7,044 nt of DNA from Planctomycetota bacterium. Lineage in GTDB: Bacteria > Planctomycetota > Phycisphaerae > FEN-1346 > JAACEH01. A program made the translations under genes and the position numbers. A model generated the notes under the pieces. It was not told the DNA's origin. It worked only from the letters and a program-made list of their open reading frames with translations, and searched no databases. Location of the stretch: NCBI GenBank assembly GCA_016935955.1, contig JAFGPY010000352.1, positions 1 to 7,044 on the forward strand, given 5' to 3'. This document shows, piece after piece, positions 1,050 through 6,394 of the stretch (position 1 is its first letter; the number at the start of each line of letters is the position of its first letter).

Positions 1050-2405
1050 TCAGAGTATCTGCGCGCCCTGCCGCTGCAACACGTCGCGCAGTTGCGACAC
1101 GTCCAGGTCGGCCACGGCCGCTCCGGAGTCCAGGGCCACGAAGGCGGCCGCCCCGGCCGCCTCGCCCGTCTGGTTGCAGTTGACCATCACCCGCACCGCG
1201 CCGTAGGCCCCGCGATCGGCGTCCATCAACCGGCCCGCCACCAGCACGTTCGTTGCTCCGCGCGGCACCAGGCTGCGATACGGCACCTGGTAAAAGGTCG
1301 GATCGATCGGCGTCGCCTCGCGCCAGCGGCCGTTTTCGGTCGGTCGGCCGGGAACCACGTAGAGTTCCCGCCCGTCGAGGTAGCGGAACGTCAGGCCCGG
1401 CTTGTCGCTGTGGTGCACGTCTACGCGGTAGCTGCCGTTGGCGATCGCATCGTCGAACCGCACGCCGTCGAGCACCTCGCGCTCGGTCAGGCGGTGCAGG
1501 CAGACGGCGTGCCGCGTGTCGCGGATGCCGATGGTGGCGGGAAGCTGCTGCAGGCTGAGCCCCGCGCCCCCGGCCGCGCGGCGCCAGCGGTCGCAGATGA
1601 CGCGGACCTGCCGGCGGCCCTCGATCTCGGCGGCCGTCAGCTGGTCGGCGTCCGAGCAATCGGCCCCGGGCACGCGCGTCCCGGCGATCATCGTCAGGTC
1701 CGCCCCGCCCGGCCGCGGGCGCCCCCAGAAGAAACCTCGCGGAATCTCCTGCCCGTCGCTGTTGTCGTAGGCTGCGGCCGCGGGATCCAGATCCGGATTG
1801 GCCTTGCGCCAGGCCGCCAGGCCGTGCACGATCATGCACGTCGTCGGCGGCTGCAGGTCGGTCCACGTCTCGCACGGCAGGCCGGCCCGGGCCACGAGGT
1901 CGCCGTCGCCCGTGGCGTCGACGAAAAACTTCGCGCGGATTGCGCGGCGGCCCGACTTGTCCTCGACGATGGCGGCCGCGAGGCGACCGTCCTGGACGAC
2001 CGGCGCCACGAATTGAGTGTGCAGCATCGGCCGCACGCCCGCCTCGGTGACCAGGGCGTCCAGCTCGATCTTCAGTTCCTCGGTGTTCAGCACGTAATGG
2101 ACGCCGTCGTCGGGCTCCAGGATGTCGACGGCCTGGCGCTTCCGCAGACGCTCGATCACCTCGGTGGTCAGGCCGGCGATGATCGTCTGCTTGAATTCGG
2201 TGTCGAGCGTCGTGTGCCAGATGCTGACCAGTCCGGCCGCAGCCACGCCGCCGAAGAAGCCGTTGAGTTCGACCAGGGCCACCTTGAGCCCGAGCCGCGC
2301 CGCCGTGACGGCGGCAAAGACGCCCGTGGCGCTGCCGCCCACGACGCAGAGGTCCACGTCGGCGACGACGGGTGTCGTGCGCGCCGATTCGCGAATCGTA
2401 TCCAT
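1050..2405 (-). CDS. FAD-dependent oxidoreductase (FAD_oxidored / PF12831-like)
   Basis: 451 residues, soluble, no signal peptide. Seen: an N-terminal Rossmann dinucleotide site at residues 17-53 (VDLCVVGGSATGVFAA, then VALVELNGFFGG), with GGSATG as a variant of GxGxxG. FFVDATGDGDLVARAG at 160-175 is the second FAD-contact motif. IGIRDTRHAVCLHRLTERE at 292-310 matches the conserved GxRxSR segment of this family. The C-terminal FAD closure is at 386-419 (NVLVAGRLMDADRGAYGAVR, then NQTGEAAGAAA). Family knowledge: these flavoproteins are often annotated only as FAD-dependent oxidoreductases, and substrates are mostly unassigned. The ATG at 2405 is chosen because GAGGGAG (2411-2417) lies 5 nt upstream and homology-like sequence begins shortly after. 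An in-frame ATG at 2504 would add 33 residues read through a palindrome. The secreted TIM-barrel gene follows after 20 nt. The enzyme probably oxidises a small substrate in the cytoplasm; which one cannot be told. Confidence 0.93.
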   Translation of the reverse strand: MDTIRESARTTPVVADVDLCVVGGSATGVFAAVTAARLGLKVALVELNGFFGGVAAAGLVSIWHTTLDTEFKQTIIAGLTTEVIERLRKRQAVDILEPDDGVHYVLNTEELKIELDALVTEAGVRPMLHTQFVAPVVQDGRLAAAIVEDKSGRRAIRAKFFVDATGDGDLVARAGLPCETWTDLQPPTTCMIVHGLAAWRKANPDLDPAAAAYDNSDGQEIPRGFFWGRPRPGGADLTMIAGTRVPGADCSDADQLTAAEIEGRRQVRVICDRWRRAAGGAGLSLQQLPATIGIRDTRHAVCLHRLTEREVLDGVRFDDAIANGSYRVDVHHSDKPGLTFRYLDGRELYVVPGRPTENGRWREATPIDPTFYQVPYRSLVPRGATNVLVAGRLMDADRGAYGAVRVMVNCNQTGEAAGAAAFVALDSGAAVADLDVSQLRDVLQRQGAQIL

Positions 2406-2444
2406 TGCCGCTCCCTCAGTCCTTCGCCAAATGCTGTTGTGTGC

Positions 2445-2468
2445 CACGGCGGGTTTTGCCCCGCCGTG
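2445..2468. repeat. Hairpin G, 9-bp perfect stem
   Basis: CACGGCGGG (2445-2453) pairs with CCCGCCGTG (2460-2468) around the loop TTTTGC. It lies in the leader of the FAD oxidoreductase gene, 40 nt before its ATG. On the minus strand the loop is GCAAAA and no T-run follows, so an intrinsic terminator is unlikely. It may be an mRNA-leader structure or another dispersed palindrome. Confidence 0.75.
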
Positions 2469-2501
2469 CCGATGAAACGAGAACAGTACCGCAGCAGCTA
2501 T

Positions 2502-2528
2502 CATGGCCTAGCCTGCGGCTAGACCATG
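2502..2528. repeat. Hairpin A, 12-position stem with one mismatch
   Basis: CATGGCCTAGCC (2502-2513) pairs with GGCTAGACCATG (2517-2528) around a TGC loop; 11 of 12 positions pair and C2507-A2523 is the only mismatch. It overlaps the left arm of hairpin B by four bases (2525-2528), so the two are mutually exclusive if both fully form. Confidence 0.8.
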
Positions 2529-2561
2529 GCACCCACGACTCCCCGATTCAGGGGTGCCATG
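2525..2561. repeat. Hairpin B, 10-bp perfect inverted repeat
   Basis: CATGGCACCC (2525-2534) is the exact reverse complement of GGGTGCCATG (2552-2561), with a 17-nt loop. The loop contains an alternative small hairpin, CCCC (2541-2544) with GGGG (2551-2554). The right arm shares CATG with the left arm of hairpin C. The same 10-mer recurs at 2645-2654 and, inverted, at 3409-3418. Confidence 0.82.
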
Positions 2562-2623
2562 CCTGCTCCTGTCGCAGATCCCGAGCACCGTCGAGGGGCA
2601 GGCATGCCGAATGGCTCCCGTCT
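2552..2623. repeat. Dispersed structured repeat, copy 1 (contains hairpin C)
   Basis: Core hairpin: CATGCCTGCTCCT (2558-2570) pairs with AGGGGCAGGCATG (2594-2606), 13 positions including one G-U. The 23-nt loop (2571-2593) contains GTCGCAGATCCCGAGC. A direct copy with the same loop start but a different stem is at 3409-3481. Similarity appears to begin at GGGTGCCATG and to run past the hairpin into GGCTCC..TCTC, giving a repeat of about 72 bp. Function unknown; a REP- or MITE-like element is the simplest reading. Confidence 0.85.
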
Positions 2624-2627
2624 CACG

Positions 2628-2654
2628 CATGGCTGCGGGGCAGCCATGGCACCC
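2628..2654. repeat. Hairpin D, 9-bp perfect stem with 3-nt loop, plus CATGGCACCC
   Basis: CATGGCTGC (2628-2636), loop GGG, GCAGCCATG (2640-2648). The right end runs into CCATGGCACCC (2644-2654), an exact repeat of the 11-mer at 2524-2534. It lies 27 nt past the stop codon of the SGNH gene. There is no strong U-tract on either side, so it is not a canonical terminator, though such a compact stem could stabilise a 3' end. Confidence 0.8.
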
Positions 2655-2681
2655 GACACAAGAGTACTCGTCTATTGCCGC

Positions 2682-3278
2682 TCAGCCTGTCGCCCTGAGT
2701 CGTTCCCGCACGACCCGGGCCACGGCGGCCCCGAGCCGCCGCGAGCCTTCCTCGGTCATGTGCACGCCGTCGTCGCGGACGCACTTGTCTACCCCGGCCT
2801 CGGCGATGACCGCGTGCAGGTCGTTGACGGGGATGCCGGCCTCGGCCATGATCTCGTCGGCGACCGCGTTGCGTTCGAGTACGTCGCGGAGGTAGCGGTG
2901 AAACGTGGTGGTGTGCGTCGCGTAGTGCCGCTGGTCGTGAATGGGCGTCGTCGTGGCCCAGACGAGCGGCTTGCCTGTGGCCTTCAGCCGCGCGACGATC
3001 GCCCGCAGGTTCTCGCGGTACCGATCGAGCGGCACCTGGTGTGCGTCGCCCGGCACGGCCGTCTTGATGTCGTGCAGCCCACAGTTGAAGTGGACCAGGG
3101 CGGCATCAGAATCGGCTGCAAGGTACTCGTCCAGGTGGGCCAGCAGGTTCGCGCTGTCCTCGGCGTTGCCTTCGTTGTGAGCCACGGCGAATCCGTCGCC
3201 CAGGGCCGCCTGGGTCGTCGGCGTGTAGCCGATGGAAATCGAGTCCCCGATGATCAGCACCTTCGTTTTCTGCGGCAC
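2682..3278 (-). CDS. Small cytoplasmic SGNH/GDSL hydrolase, GTG start
   Basis: 198 residues. Seen (numbering from the GTG): Block I is VLIIGDSISIGY at 7-18 with nucleophile S13; the Block II glycine is G37 (HNEGN); Block III is NCGLHD at 65-70, a variant of the usual GxND; Block V is DDGVHMTEEG at 169-178, giving the D170-x-x-H173 pair. These are the catalytic blocks of SGNH hydrolases, which remove acetyl or other acyl groups from sugars or lipids. ATTTPI at 108-113 is a further typical strand. No signal peptide. The GTG at 3278 is preferred because AAGGAG (3285-3290) is 6 nt upstream. An in-frame ATG at 3362 would add 28 residues that translate a repeat remnant. The gene lies between direct copies of a hairpin repeat and has 220- and 276-nt gaps on its two sides, so it may be an insertion in an otherwise UROD-FAD operon. 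Likely role: cytoplasmic deacylation; substrate unknown. Confidence 0.9.
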   Translation of the reverse strand: MPQKTKVLIIGDSISIGYTPTTQAALGDGFAVAHNEGNAEDSANLLAHLDEYLAADSDAALVHFNCGLHDIKTAVPGDAHQVPLDRYRENLRAIVARLKATGKPLVWATTTPIHDQRHYATHTTTFHRYLRDVLERNAVADEIMAEAGIPVNDLHAVIAEAGVDKCVRDDGVHMTEEGSRRLGAAVARVVRERLRATG

Positions 3279-3284
3279 GTCCGT

Positions 3285-3290
3285 CTCCTT
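3285..3290 (-). promoter_or_regulatory. Ribosome binding site deciding the GTG start of the SGNH gene
   Basis: Minus-strand AAGGAG lies 6 nt before the GTG at 3278. The encoded protein then begins MPQKTKVLIIGDS, the normal distance of an SGNH nucleophile from the N-terminus. No comparable site is near the upstream ATG at 3362. Confidence 0.75.
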
Positions 3291-3330
3291 CTTCCTGCAA
3301 TCCGCGTGGCCGCCATTCGACAAGCCCATG

Positions 3331-3358
3331 GCCCCGAGCAACGTCGAGGGGCAAGCGT
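3331..3358. repeat. Degenerate, 5'-truncated third copy of the structured repeat
   Basis: The stretch 3333-3358 matches 2580-2605 of copy 1 at 23 of 26 positions by eye (CCCGAGCAACGTCGAGGGGC against CCCGAGCACCGTCGAGGGGC, then CAAGCGT against CAGGCAT). The left arm and the TGTCGCAGAT part of the loop are missing. What remains can fold only through GCCCC (3331-3335) with GGGGC (3348-3352). Confidence 0.65.
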
Positions 3359-3374
3359 CCACACCCTATCTTGC

Positions 3375-3394
3375 GGGCACGGCAGGCCGTGCCC
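3375..3394. repeat. Hairpin F, GGGCACGGC palindrome
   Basis: GGGCACGGC (3375-3383) and GCCGTGCCC (3386-3394) form a perfect 9-bp stem around AG, followed by CTAC. A GTAGGGGCACGGC-type palindrome is, from memory, a dispersed repeat in several bacterial phyla; that recollection is not checked. No T-run follows on either strand. Confidence 0.75.
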
Positions 3395-3408
3395 CTACAT
3401 TCCGTGCC

Positions 3409-3481
3409 GGGTGCCATGCTTCTGCTTGTCGCAGATCCCGAGCGAAGCCGAGGGGCAGAAGCATGCGACAGGCTCCGCTCT
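3409..3481. repeat. Dispersed structured repeat, copy 2 (contains hairpin E)
   Basis: CATGCTTCTGC (3415-3425) pairs perfectly with GCAGAAGCATG (3455-3465), and two G-U pairs may extend it. The loop region 3428-3450 is 23 nt and matches copy 1 at 19 of 23 positions, including GTCGCAGATCCCGAGC. Compared with copy 1, the left arm gained TT and changed sequence while the right arm gained the complementary AA, so pairing is kept. Same orientation as copy 1, on the other side of the SGNH gene, and 17 nt past the UROD stop codon. Confidence 0.85.
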
Positions 3482-3498
3482 CGTTTCCGCGGCACACC

Positions 3499-4623
3499 TT
3501 ACAGCCAACCGGTCATTCGTGCAAGCTGCCGGCTGTAATCGACGTAGGCCGGCCACGAGACGTCCGACGGCACGCCGTGGTCGCAGCTCGGGATGTAGCC
3601 GCCGTCGCGAACCACCGGCTCGATGCGGGCCAGTTCCCGCTGGATCGCGCGGCCGCCCTTGGCCATGGCCCGCTTGTCCACGCCGCCGCGATAGGCCATC
3701 CGCCGGCCGTGCCGCGCCCGAAAGATGTTGATGTCGTTGCCCGCCGCCACCTCGATCGGGTCGCACACGTTCACGCCTGAATCGATCCACAGGGGAATCA
3801 ACTCGTCGATGCAGCCGTCGCTGTCGACGTCCACGAGCGGCACGCCTGCGGCCCGGGCCTGGCCGGCCCAGCGATCGTAGGCCGGCGAGCAGAACCGCCG
3901 CACCATCTCGGGCGAGATCATCGAGTGGCCCTTGTAGGCCATGTCCTCGCTGATGTGGATCATGTCGGGCGCGACGCGATCGAAGATGCGTTCGAGCACG
4001 GCGGCAACGAACCCGGTCCAGAAGGCGGCCATCTCGTCGACGAACTCGGGCCGCTCGATCATCGCGAAGCACAGCCCCTCGAAACCGCACCACTCGCGCA
4101 TCTGCCAGAACGGTCCGCTGAAGGCCACGGTCAGCACGTAGTCGCGATCCTTCAGGCGGCGGCAACGGTCGGCGAAGTCGTCCGGGAAGCGGCCCGGCGT
4201 GTCGACGTGGTAACGCTGCTTCATCTGCGCCAAGTCCTCGGGCGTCTCGACCGGGCACCGCAGCCATCGCCGCGTCACGAAGTCCTTGGCCTCGCGCAGG
4301 TAGGTCACGTCGTACTCGTCGCTGATCTCGCAGACGTTGCCCTTCCAGTCCTGCACGATCAGGTGGTTGCCGCGCCGCTCGAGTACCTTCTCCTCGAACT
4401 GCGGCATCATCACCAGCGACACGCCCAGGCTGACCGCCGGCTGGGCGGGCGGCAGGGCGATGCCCAGGGCGTCGTAAAGACAGGTCATCCAGGGCCGCGA
4501 TCCGTCCAGCCCCTGGCCGCGCCAGGCCCGTAGCGTGGACTCCCGCGGATGACCCGGGGCAAAGGGCACGCGGTCCGGCCGGCCGAACAGCAACGTTTCC
4601 AGGAACCTCTCGCGAGAGTTCAT
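3499..4623 (-). CDS. Uroporphyrinogen decarboxylase (URO-D) family protein, not HemE
   Basis: 374 residues, soluble. Seen: the N-terminus MNSRERFLETLLFGRPDRVPF (1-21) is the standard opening of UROD-fold proteins. The middle has PFWQMREWCGFEGL (171-184), RPEFVDEM (191-198) and PDMIHISEDMAYKGHSMISP (219-238). The metal- or substrate-site region is VPLVDVDSDGCIDELIP (261-277), and the C-terminus is GGYIPSCDHGVPSDVSW (341-357) with C347. The Arg-rich PVWxMRQAGR motif of haem-pathway HemE is absent, so it is unlikely to make coproporphyrinogen. Family knowledge: UROD-fold relatives include the corrinoid methyltransferases MtaA, MtbA and CmuA, which bind Zn through His-x-Cys plus a distal Cys. Here the His-x-Cys site reads DSDGC, so ligands may differ. 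The ATG at 4623 is chosen over 4683 because the putative promoter (4659-4687) overlaps the longer form and GGGAG (4635-4639) precedes the shorter one by 11 nt. First gene of the minus-strand cluster. Methyl transfer or a related C1 reaction is a possibility, not a conclusion. Confidence 0.9.
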   Translation of the reverse strand: MNSRERFLETLLFGRPDRVPFAPGHPRESTLRAWRGQGLDGSRPWMTCLYDALGIALPPAQPAVSLGVSLVMMPQFEEKVLERRGNHLIVQDWKGNVCEISDEYDVTYLREAKDFVTRRWLRCPVETPEDLAQMKQRYHVDTPGRFPDDFADRCRRLKDRDYVLTVAFSGPFWQMREWCGFEGLCFAMIERPEFVDEMAAFWTGFVAAVLERIFDRVAPDMIHISEDMAYKGHSMISPEMVRRFCSPAYDRWAGQARAAGVPLVDVDSDGCIDELIPLWIDSGVNVCDPIEVAAGNDINIFRARHGRRMAYRGGVDKRAMAKGGRAIQRELARIEPVVRDGGYIPSCDHGVPSDVSWPAYVDYSRQLARMTGWL

Positions 4624-6227: not shown

Positions 6228-6229
6228 GA

Positions 6230-6281
6230 CCCCTCTCCCTTGACGGGAGAGGGTGGCCCGTAGGGCCGGGTGAGGGTGACG
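6230..6281 (+). repeat. Two-hairpin repeat, copy 1
   Basis: Hairpin 1: CCCTCTCCC (6231-6239), loop TTGAC, GGGAGAGGG (6245-6253). Hairpin 2: GGCCC (6255-6259), loop GTA, GGGCC (6263-6267). Then the tail GGTGAGGGTG (6269-6278). This type is, from general knowledge, a common dispersed repeat whose translation gives spurious protein fragments in many genomes. Confidence 0.88.
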
Positions 6282-6340
6282 ACGCGCGGGCTGCGTTACG
6301 AATCCGAGGCGTCGCATATTGCGGGCGTCTTCCCCGCGTA

Positions 6341-6394
6341 CGCCACCCTCACCGCCGCCTGAAGGCGGCACCTCCCCCGTCAAGGGGGAGGGGT
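6341..6394 (-). repeat. Two-hairpin repeat, copy 2 (inverted)
   Basis: Read on the minus strand it has the same plan as copy 1. Hairpin 1 is CCTCCCCC, loop TTGAC, GGGGGAGG (6391-6371); hairpin 2 is GCCGCC, loop TTCA, GGCGGC (6369-6354); the tail is GGTGAGGGTG (6353-6344). Loop 1 and the tail are identical to copy 1, whereas both stems differ with pairing preserved. The tails of the two copies face each other. Confidence 0.88.

Follow-up and report, generated by a model that had tools for sequence, protein, structure and literature searches.

The 7,044-nucleotide stretch of planctomycete DNA analysed here (contig JAFGPY010000352.1; hereafter the window) raises the question of what two similar hairpins on either side of an SGNH/GDSL hydrolase gene are, and whether they bear on the presence of that gene. 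An earlier note on this DNA had described them as two copies in the same orientation, 857 bases apart, with exactly one gene between them, and this description is correct: both lie on the forward strand, 857 bases from start to start, and only the SGNH gene separates them. This gene stands in a row of three co-directional genes (UROD-like, SGNH and FAD), whose named homologues, like those of the other window genes, are mostly planctomycete with a few from other phyla. The two intervening gaps hold four hairpin units (Table 1), of which the earlier reading had overlooked the two on the reverse strand (2502-2534 and 2628-2654), along with a partial core at 3332-3350.

Table 1. Features of the window, in window coordinates
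Feature	Position	Strand	Remarks
FAD-dependent oxidoreductase gene (PF12831)	1050..2405	-	start at 2405 favoured by 451-aa homologues
Unit 1, REP-type	2502..2534	-	3-nt loop, CATGGTCTAGCC-GCA-GGCTAGGCCATG; foot at 2534-2529
Copy 1, REP-type unit	2552..2606	+	foot GGGTGC at 2552-2557; tip module in loop
Copy 1 arms CATGCCTGC/GCAGGCATG	2558-2566/2598-2606	+	perfect 9 bp; loop 2567-2597, 31 nt
Unit 3, REP-type	2628..2654	-	3-nt loop, CATGGCTGC-CCC-GCAGCCATG; foot at 2654-2649
SGNH/GDSL hydrolase gene (PF13472)	2682..3278	-	between copies 1 and 2
Partial module core CCCCGAGCAACGTCGAGGG	3332..3350	+	without foot or paired arms
Copy 2, REP-type unit	3409..3465	+	foot GGGTGC at 3409-3414; copy 1's module in loop
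Copy 2 arms CATGCTTCTGC/GCAGAAGCATG	3415-3425/3455-3465	+	perfect 11 bp; loop 3426-3454, 29 nt
UROD-like gene (PF01208)	3499..4623	-	
Second repeat type, frame CCCCTCTCCCTTG..GGGAGAGG-GTG[X]GGTGAGGG	6229..6282	+	palindromic insert GGCCCGTAGGGCC
Second repeat frame, inverted	6340..6394	-	different palindromic insert GCCGCCTTCAGGCGGC

Copies 1 and 2 have the foot GGGTGCCATGC in common, and both of their perfect stems begin and end with CATG. As had been claimed, the stems differ on both arms together, the left one by TT and the right one by AA. The reported loop identity of 19 in 23 is right for those 23 nucleotides; the actual loops are longer and contain a common core, TGTCGCAGATCCCGAGC-nnn-GnCGAGGG, with 24 matches over 28 positions; no identical run shared by the copies exceeds 17 bases. 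The sequence GTCGCAGATCCCGAGC, with up to 3 mismatches, occurs twice in the window against 0.20 expected, and 4 of 200 shuffles have at least two. The larger extents once given to the copies, to 2623 and 3481, did not hold up, as the resemblance of the stretches that follow the hairpins is not significant (149 of 2000 shuffles score at least as high). Folding energy by itself is weak evidence, as 7 and 20 of 200 shuffles fold equally (DNA parameters). The partial core between the SGNH gene and copy 2 is likely a relic.

Exact GGGTGCCATG occurs four times in the window, against a mean of 0.03 and a maximum of 1 in 300 first-order Markov sequences, and all four feet head hairpins, with four different stems that are paired in 4 of 4 cases. 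Copy 1 and unit 3, 21 bases apart on opposite strands, form an inverted doublet of the BIME/REPIN layout, which recurs in three other genomes (G003, G009 and G429), while unit 1 has a counterpart in genome G407, CATGGTCTGAC-GAA-GTCAGGCCATG. Two further hairpins of other kinds lie nearby: one at 2441-2470 (GTGCCACGGCGGG-TTTTG-CCCCGCCGTGCC), with similar hairpins in G407 (14 pattern matches in 508 kb, at least one differing in sequence); and a perfect hairpin at 3375-3394 beside copy 2 (GGGCACGGCAGGCCGTGCCC), whose pattern is absent from the four genome samples searched.

Bacterial genomes commonly carry short repeats known as REP elements. All four units of the window resemble them in being extragenic, within the gaps 2406-2681 and 3279-3498, and in carrying a complementary region of variable sequence downstream of the foot. 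The definition of REPs also places a 5' tetranucleotide GT[A/G]G directly at the hairpin (PMC3686654), whereas all four window units read GGGTGC and then CATG; the foot beside the hairpin is thus GTGC in the window and in G429, and GTGG in G407 and G003. Since GTGC departs from the strict foot, we treat the units as a divergent-foot family of REP type rather than as canonical REPs. We consider it likely that copies 1 and 2 are REP-type elements of a planctomycete family linked to RAYT/TnpA_REP, with a second palindromic module in the hairpin tip. This family of extragenic GGGTG[C/G]-foot hairpins, dispersed as single units and inverted doublets, has probably been spread by a REP-type transposase.

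The dispersal is seen in relatives, with the reversed pattern as the copy-number control; a first set of loci was collected by UROD alignment (best 80 of 143 matched stretches). Hairpins of the form GGGTGCCATGC...GCATG occur in 8 of the 16 genomes behind these UROD loci, in up to 65+62 copies where the reversed control gives 0; that maximum belongs to G003, and G009 has 39+27 (reversed control near zero). Matches to GGGTGCCATG...CATG occur in 110 of 198 genomes belonging to this class, and 28 genomes have at least 10, both strands together, with a control of at most 3 per genome; because some of the matches listed look coding, these 28 need not all hold REP families. Each of the match-rich genomes listed has its own main stems. 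G407 contains 221 hairpins with the foot GGGTGGCATG (101+120; control 0+0) in several stem types, and in the sample taken from it 77 of 86 feet fold, giving 33 distinct hairpin sequences. The foot followed by TGTCGNAGATCC is found in none of 392 genomes of the phylum and in one of 248 of the class (G003). Two results count against the reading: the window core with up to 1 mismatch occurs in 88 of the 392 phylum genomes sampled, at 1-9 copies each and in none at high copy, and in 16 relatives the loop 16-mer does not rise above its reversed control (91 against 111 matches).

Outside these genomes, the loop 16-mer matched 18 IMG/VR contigs, none of which, as printed, has a GGGTGC foot in the 40 bases before or the second half of the core in the 50 bases after, and these matches are taken as chance; a plasmid search in distant mode returned three weak Rhizobium matches, all under one coding gene. 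Two arrangements in relatives are recorded here for their own sake. At two loci of G009 (L202, position 4711, and L203, position 4931) a foot and half stem directly precede a complete unit (GGGTGCCATGCTTTCGCTTGG-GGGTGCCATG...), which may reflect insertion of one unit close to another's tip, and the doublets of loci L369-L371 in G420 set a unit with a long interior, GGGTGCCATGGCTGG...CCAGCCATG, opposite a unit with a CCTGCGAC stem.

Three relatives provide the link to a transposase, with RAYT genes called by NF047646 at a cut-off of 80 bits. The RAYT of G407 (L273:1399-1968; 92 bits, and 22.7 bits for Pfam Y1_Tnp, just under its cut-off of 23) is flanked by inverted GGGTGGCATGGTCCGGCG hairpins at 1311(+) and 2035(-), and a homologue in G003 (L158, 89 bits) lies between hairpins at 1017(+) and 1752(-). 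That of G429 (L357:9482-10024, 101 bits) lies between same-strand CCTGC-stem hairpins at 9375(+) and 10117(+), and a reverse unit comes after the second. Flanking pairs are not strictly inverted in every case. A tblastn search with the G407 RAYT found 6 distinct genes in the loci scanned, 4 of them with GGGTG-foot hairpins on both sides, one of these four having hairpins of another palindrome type. At locus L271 of G407, a RAYT-like gene stands between inverted GGGTGCCACACTTTGTCC hairpins (1207 and 1916) with the GGGTG foot and a quite different palindrome. PF01797 matches occur in all 16 genomes first examined, most without these hairpins nearby, and 27 of the first 30 Y1-transposase loci lack the GGGTG[CG]CATG foot, so that most such transposases are not visibly linked to the family. 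We propose that the RAYT, an HUH single-strand nuclease, would recognise foot and hairpin in single-stranded DNA and thereby aid the spread of units, and that this role as substrate would keep the arms complementary while leaving the stem sequence free to vary between subfamilies; the source genome of the window presumably behaves as its relatives do.

Whether the arms do stay complementary was assessed by dealing out the right arms anew in 1000 shuffles and scoring base pairs 5-9. These are paired in 0.89 of cells in G407 (n=78), against at most 0.74 when shuffled, in 0.97 against 0.85 in G003 (n=56) and in 0.92 against 0.90 in G009 (n=27); G001, G004, G005 and G008, with 3-7 copies each, and the four window units (1.00) are inseparable from their shuffles. 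At pair 5, the distinct elements pooled comprise 66 C-G, 32 G-C, 4 T-A, 2 G-T and 5 unpaired. The earlier suggestion of selection for the fold is therefore borne out in so far as pairing is kept while the stem sequence changes in G407, G003 and G009. For REPs, however, palindromes kept with complementary changes have already been reported (PMC2817692), and covariation is thus to be expected. The other mechanism that had been suggested is copying of palindromes, by template switching between arms at the fork or quasi-palindrome correction, which would rewrite one arm and leave perfect new stems. The symmetric TT/AA difference and the diversity of the G407 sample, where 77 hairpins comprise 33 distinct sequences, are in its favour; we nevertheless judge it improbable, since copies with a single changed arm exist in G407, G009 and G005, and selection on RAYT substrates explains the pairing without it.

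A more specific reading of the covarying stems is that one tip module sits in two stem types, both of which are found module-free in relatives. Empty and filled stems were counted by place, the empty forms being other copies or copies in other genomes, not orthologous sites. In G429, the stem GTGGCTGC/GCAGCCAC closes loops of 2-3 nt at 13 places and loops of TT plus 27 nt at 6, the filled loop reading TT followed by GACG(C/T)AGTTCCCGAGCACCGTCGAGGG (8 filled units with looser matching); 5 of the 14 longer-loop places listed for this stem (15 in all) carry two cores in tandem. G003 offers two such stems: GTGGTCGCC/GGCGACCAC closes a bare GC loop at 2 places and GC plus module at another 2, and CTTTCGC/GCGAAAG has a TT loop at 3 places, 6-nt loops elsewhere and the module at 5, one filled loop being exactly TT plus GTCGAAGATCCGCTGTGGCGG. 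In G422 the CTTTCGC stem holds a different loop of 35 nt.

The stems of the window fit into this series. The exact stem of copy 2 is empty once in G407, as CATGCTTCTGC-TT-GCAGAAGCATG (CTTCTGC-TT-GCAGAAG), and the window loop accordingly reads as TT plus 27 nt, as in G429. In G429 the left arm of copy 1, CATGCCTGC, belongs to hairpins whose loop part measures 5 nt and whose right arm (CAGGCATG) is shorter by one base, at 20 of 21 places, the 21st having one change; one such hairpin, adjoining the RAYT, starts its loop with TCC like copy 1. The 579 kb of G429 sampled contain no CCTGC stem filled with the module, and the module of G429 is of the window's kind, with 19 nt, TCCCGAGCACCGTCGAGGG, identical to copy 1. 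In the doublets of G429 the partner with the CCTGC stem is empty and the one with the GGCTGC stem may be in either state, whereas the window doublet combines a filled CCTGC partner with an empty GGCTGC partner; similarity between the doublet spacers of the window and G429 is not significant (337 of 1000 shuffles). Given the states of these doublet partners and the stems found empty, the differing stems of copies 1 and 2 are most plausibly explained by a single module occupying two REP stem types, the tip holding a palindromic module of about 27 nt that would not be tied to the stem type.

The main competitor of this reading is a single inherited long-loop REP, with the loop present throughout and a stem that drifted compensatorily under selection for the fold. 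It accounts for the pairing kept across stem types, for the foot and loop common to both copies and for the symmetric TT/AA difference that preserves pairing, and complementary change of this sort is described for REPs (PMC2817692). It has difficulty, on the other hand, with stems like both window types that have short loops elsewhere, with one stem being both empty and filled within G429 and again within G003, and with the doublets, whose CCTGC partner is empty and GGCTGC partner in either state in G429, as opposed to filled CCTGC and empty GGCTGC in the window. We thus hold it to be unlikely, if the strongest of the alternatives. For the module itself, insertion into empty stems would be our preferred direction, loss from a filled ancestor being the alternative.

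In G003 the module is a dispersed repeat in its own right, the 21-nt motif GTCGAAGAYCCGCNGNGGCGG (up to 1 mismatch) having 74+57 copies, with a control of 0. Among the 97 copies whose flanks are clean, 15 form the tip of a perfect palindrome of at least 7 bp (shuffled mean 2.3, maximum 9 in 2000), and the other 82 lie outside any palindrome of that length. Outside the main hairpin type, 9 of 89 copies are at palindrome tips, a modest excess over a shuffled mean of 2.1 whose maximum of 9 was reached once in 2000. A smaller count of 42 copies, two of them from G005, placed 13 at palindrome tips. The corresponding stem test in G429, where 11 of 22 cores have at least 6 bp (shuffled mean 8.0; 40 of 2000 reach 11), is weak because one stem dominates.

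A second repeat type in the window (Table 1), whose frame may also be written CCTCTCCCTTG..GGGAGAGG-GTG[X]GGTGAGGG, points in the same direction. Both of its inserts X in the window are perfectly palindromic. The G407 sample contains 37 such frames, 35 with a palindromic X of at least 5 bp and 21 distinct X, and the G429 sample 20, 17 with a palindromic X and 16 distinct X; the samples of G003, G009, G420 and G414 contain none, and two pattern matches in loci L001-L080 are both without such a palindrome. Many of the X listed for G429 read CCCCGAGC...GAGGGGC, a core of the kind present in the hairpins. The inserts of the second frame would fit an exchange of palindromic cores between frames. 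More broadly, we tentatively propose that REP hairpin tips may serve in these planctomycetes as landing sites for palindromic modules of 21-35 nt that move between unrelated frames, so that an enzyme working on the single-stranded loops of hairpins would reshuffle stems and tips independently, each as a mobile part; we hold this to be somewhat less likely than not. The second frame and the hairpin stems also suggest, as far as sequence can tell, that the window is nearest to G407 and G429, which belong to one order (8 genomes).

With this in mind, we return to the SGNH gene. Recombination between the copies had been expected to remove it, and one might suppose more generally that copies 1 and 2 delimit a recombination or transposition cassette, as they flank exactly one gene. 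This we find scarcely credible: the hairpins are dispersed in many genomes, the longest identity between the copies is only 17 bases, and close homologues of all three genes are listed on contigs of 3990 bases (source jgi). The latter, FAD P0242, SGNH P0125 and UROD P0002, have 74, 62 and 75% identity and rank first, fourth and first, respectively, once the proteins of the window itself are set aside. FAD P0243 and SGNH P0123 are likewise each listed on a contig of 4117 bases, and UROD and SGNH matches also share the contig sizes 15718 and 32199. Equal sizes suggest that the homologues lie on one contig in each case, and the gene order hence appears independent of this repeat pair. An SGNH homologue is found at none of 80 UROD loci (tblastn, E 1e-8; best 80 of 143), which marks the linkage as uncommon there and is no proof that the repeats made it; a weak FAD homologue occurs at 2 of the 80 (30 and 29% identity), and in the order of G407 an SGNH homologue occurs in 2 of 8 genomes (42 and 38% identity). 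Altogether, the idea that copies 1 and 2 serve to excise the SGNH gene is not supported by anything found. The position of the hairpins between co-directional genes could also indicate transcription terminators or a structured RNA leader. This is very improbable, however, given the absence of any terminator-like site in 2380-3520 (0.4 expected) and of Rfam matches up to E 0.5, and the scatter of same-family hairpins in relatives.

Much of this picture is already known from other bacteria, namely REPs, doublets, RAYTs, kept palindromes and repeats inside small palindromes. The units resemble the REP/BIME/REPIN and RAYT systems in their extragenic hairpins with a conserved 5' foot, their inverted doublets and their variable complementary stems and, in relatives, in high copy number and a RAYT gene flanked by hairpins; they differ in a foot of GTGC (window, G429) or GTGG (G407, G003) instead of GTAG, and in a long loop that holds a second module. 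In Thermomicrobium roseum, GTAG-23 REPs sit inside small palindromes CCGSSCC(n3,4)GGSSCGG, and two further such cases are described (PMC3733652). There, as here, small palindromes carry the repeat at their tip and the genome offers many further targets that are empty, but the host palindrome in our case is a REP-type unit with its own foot, and the module begins with G[TA]CG[CA]AG (G[TA]CG[CT]AG in G429), without a GTAG foot. As described in the same source, E. coli type GTAG-3 REPs likewise combine short- and long-loop forms, with long loops that can be self-complementary, yet these are loop variants of one family, whereas here one core occurs in several different stems. GTAG repeats also occur in the PVC superphylum (PMC3733652). 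The open-access literature searched yielded nothing on GGGTG REPs of planctomycetes or on tip modules, which is not proof of absence, and little on REP families in this phylum.

What we would call new is the combination of stem and module, with empty and filled forms. To our knowledge, the origin of new REP sequences is not settled. A stem that is empty at some places and filled at others in one genome, with exact junctions, and a core shared by several stems suggest a concrete and testable route to new REP types, by insertion or exchange at the hairpin tip, and this tip-module pattern is the part worth following.
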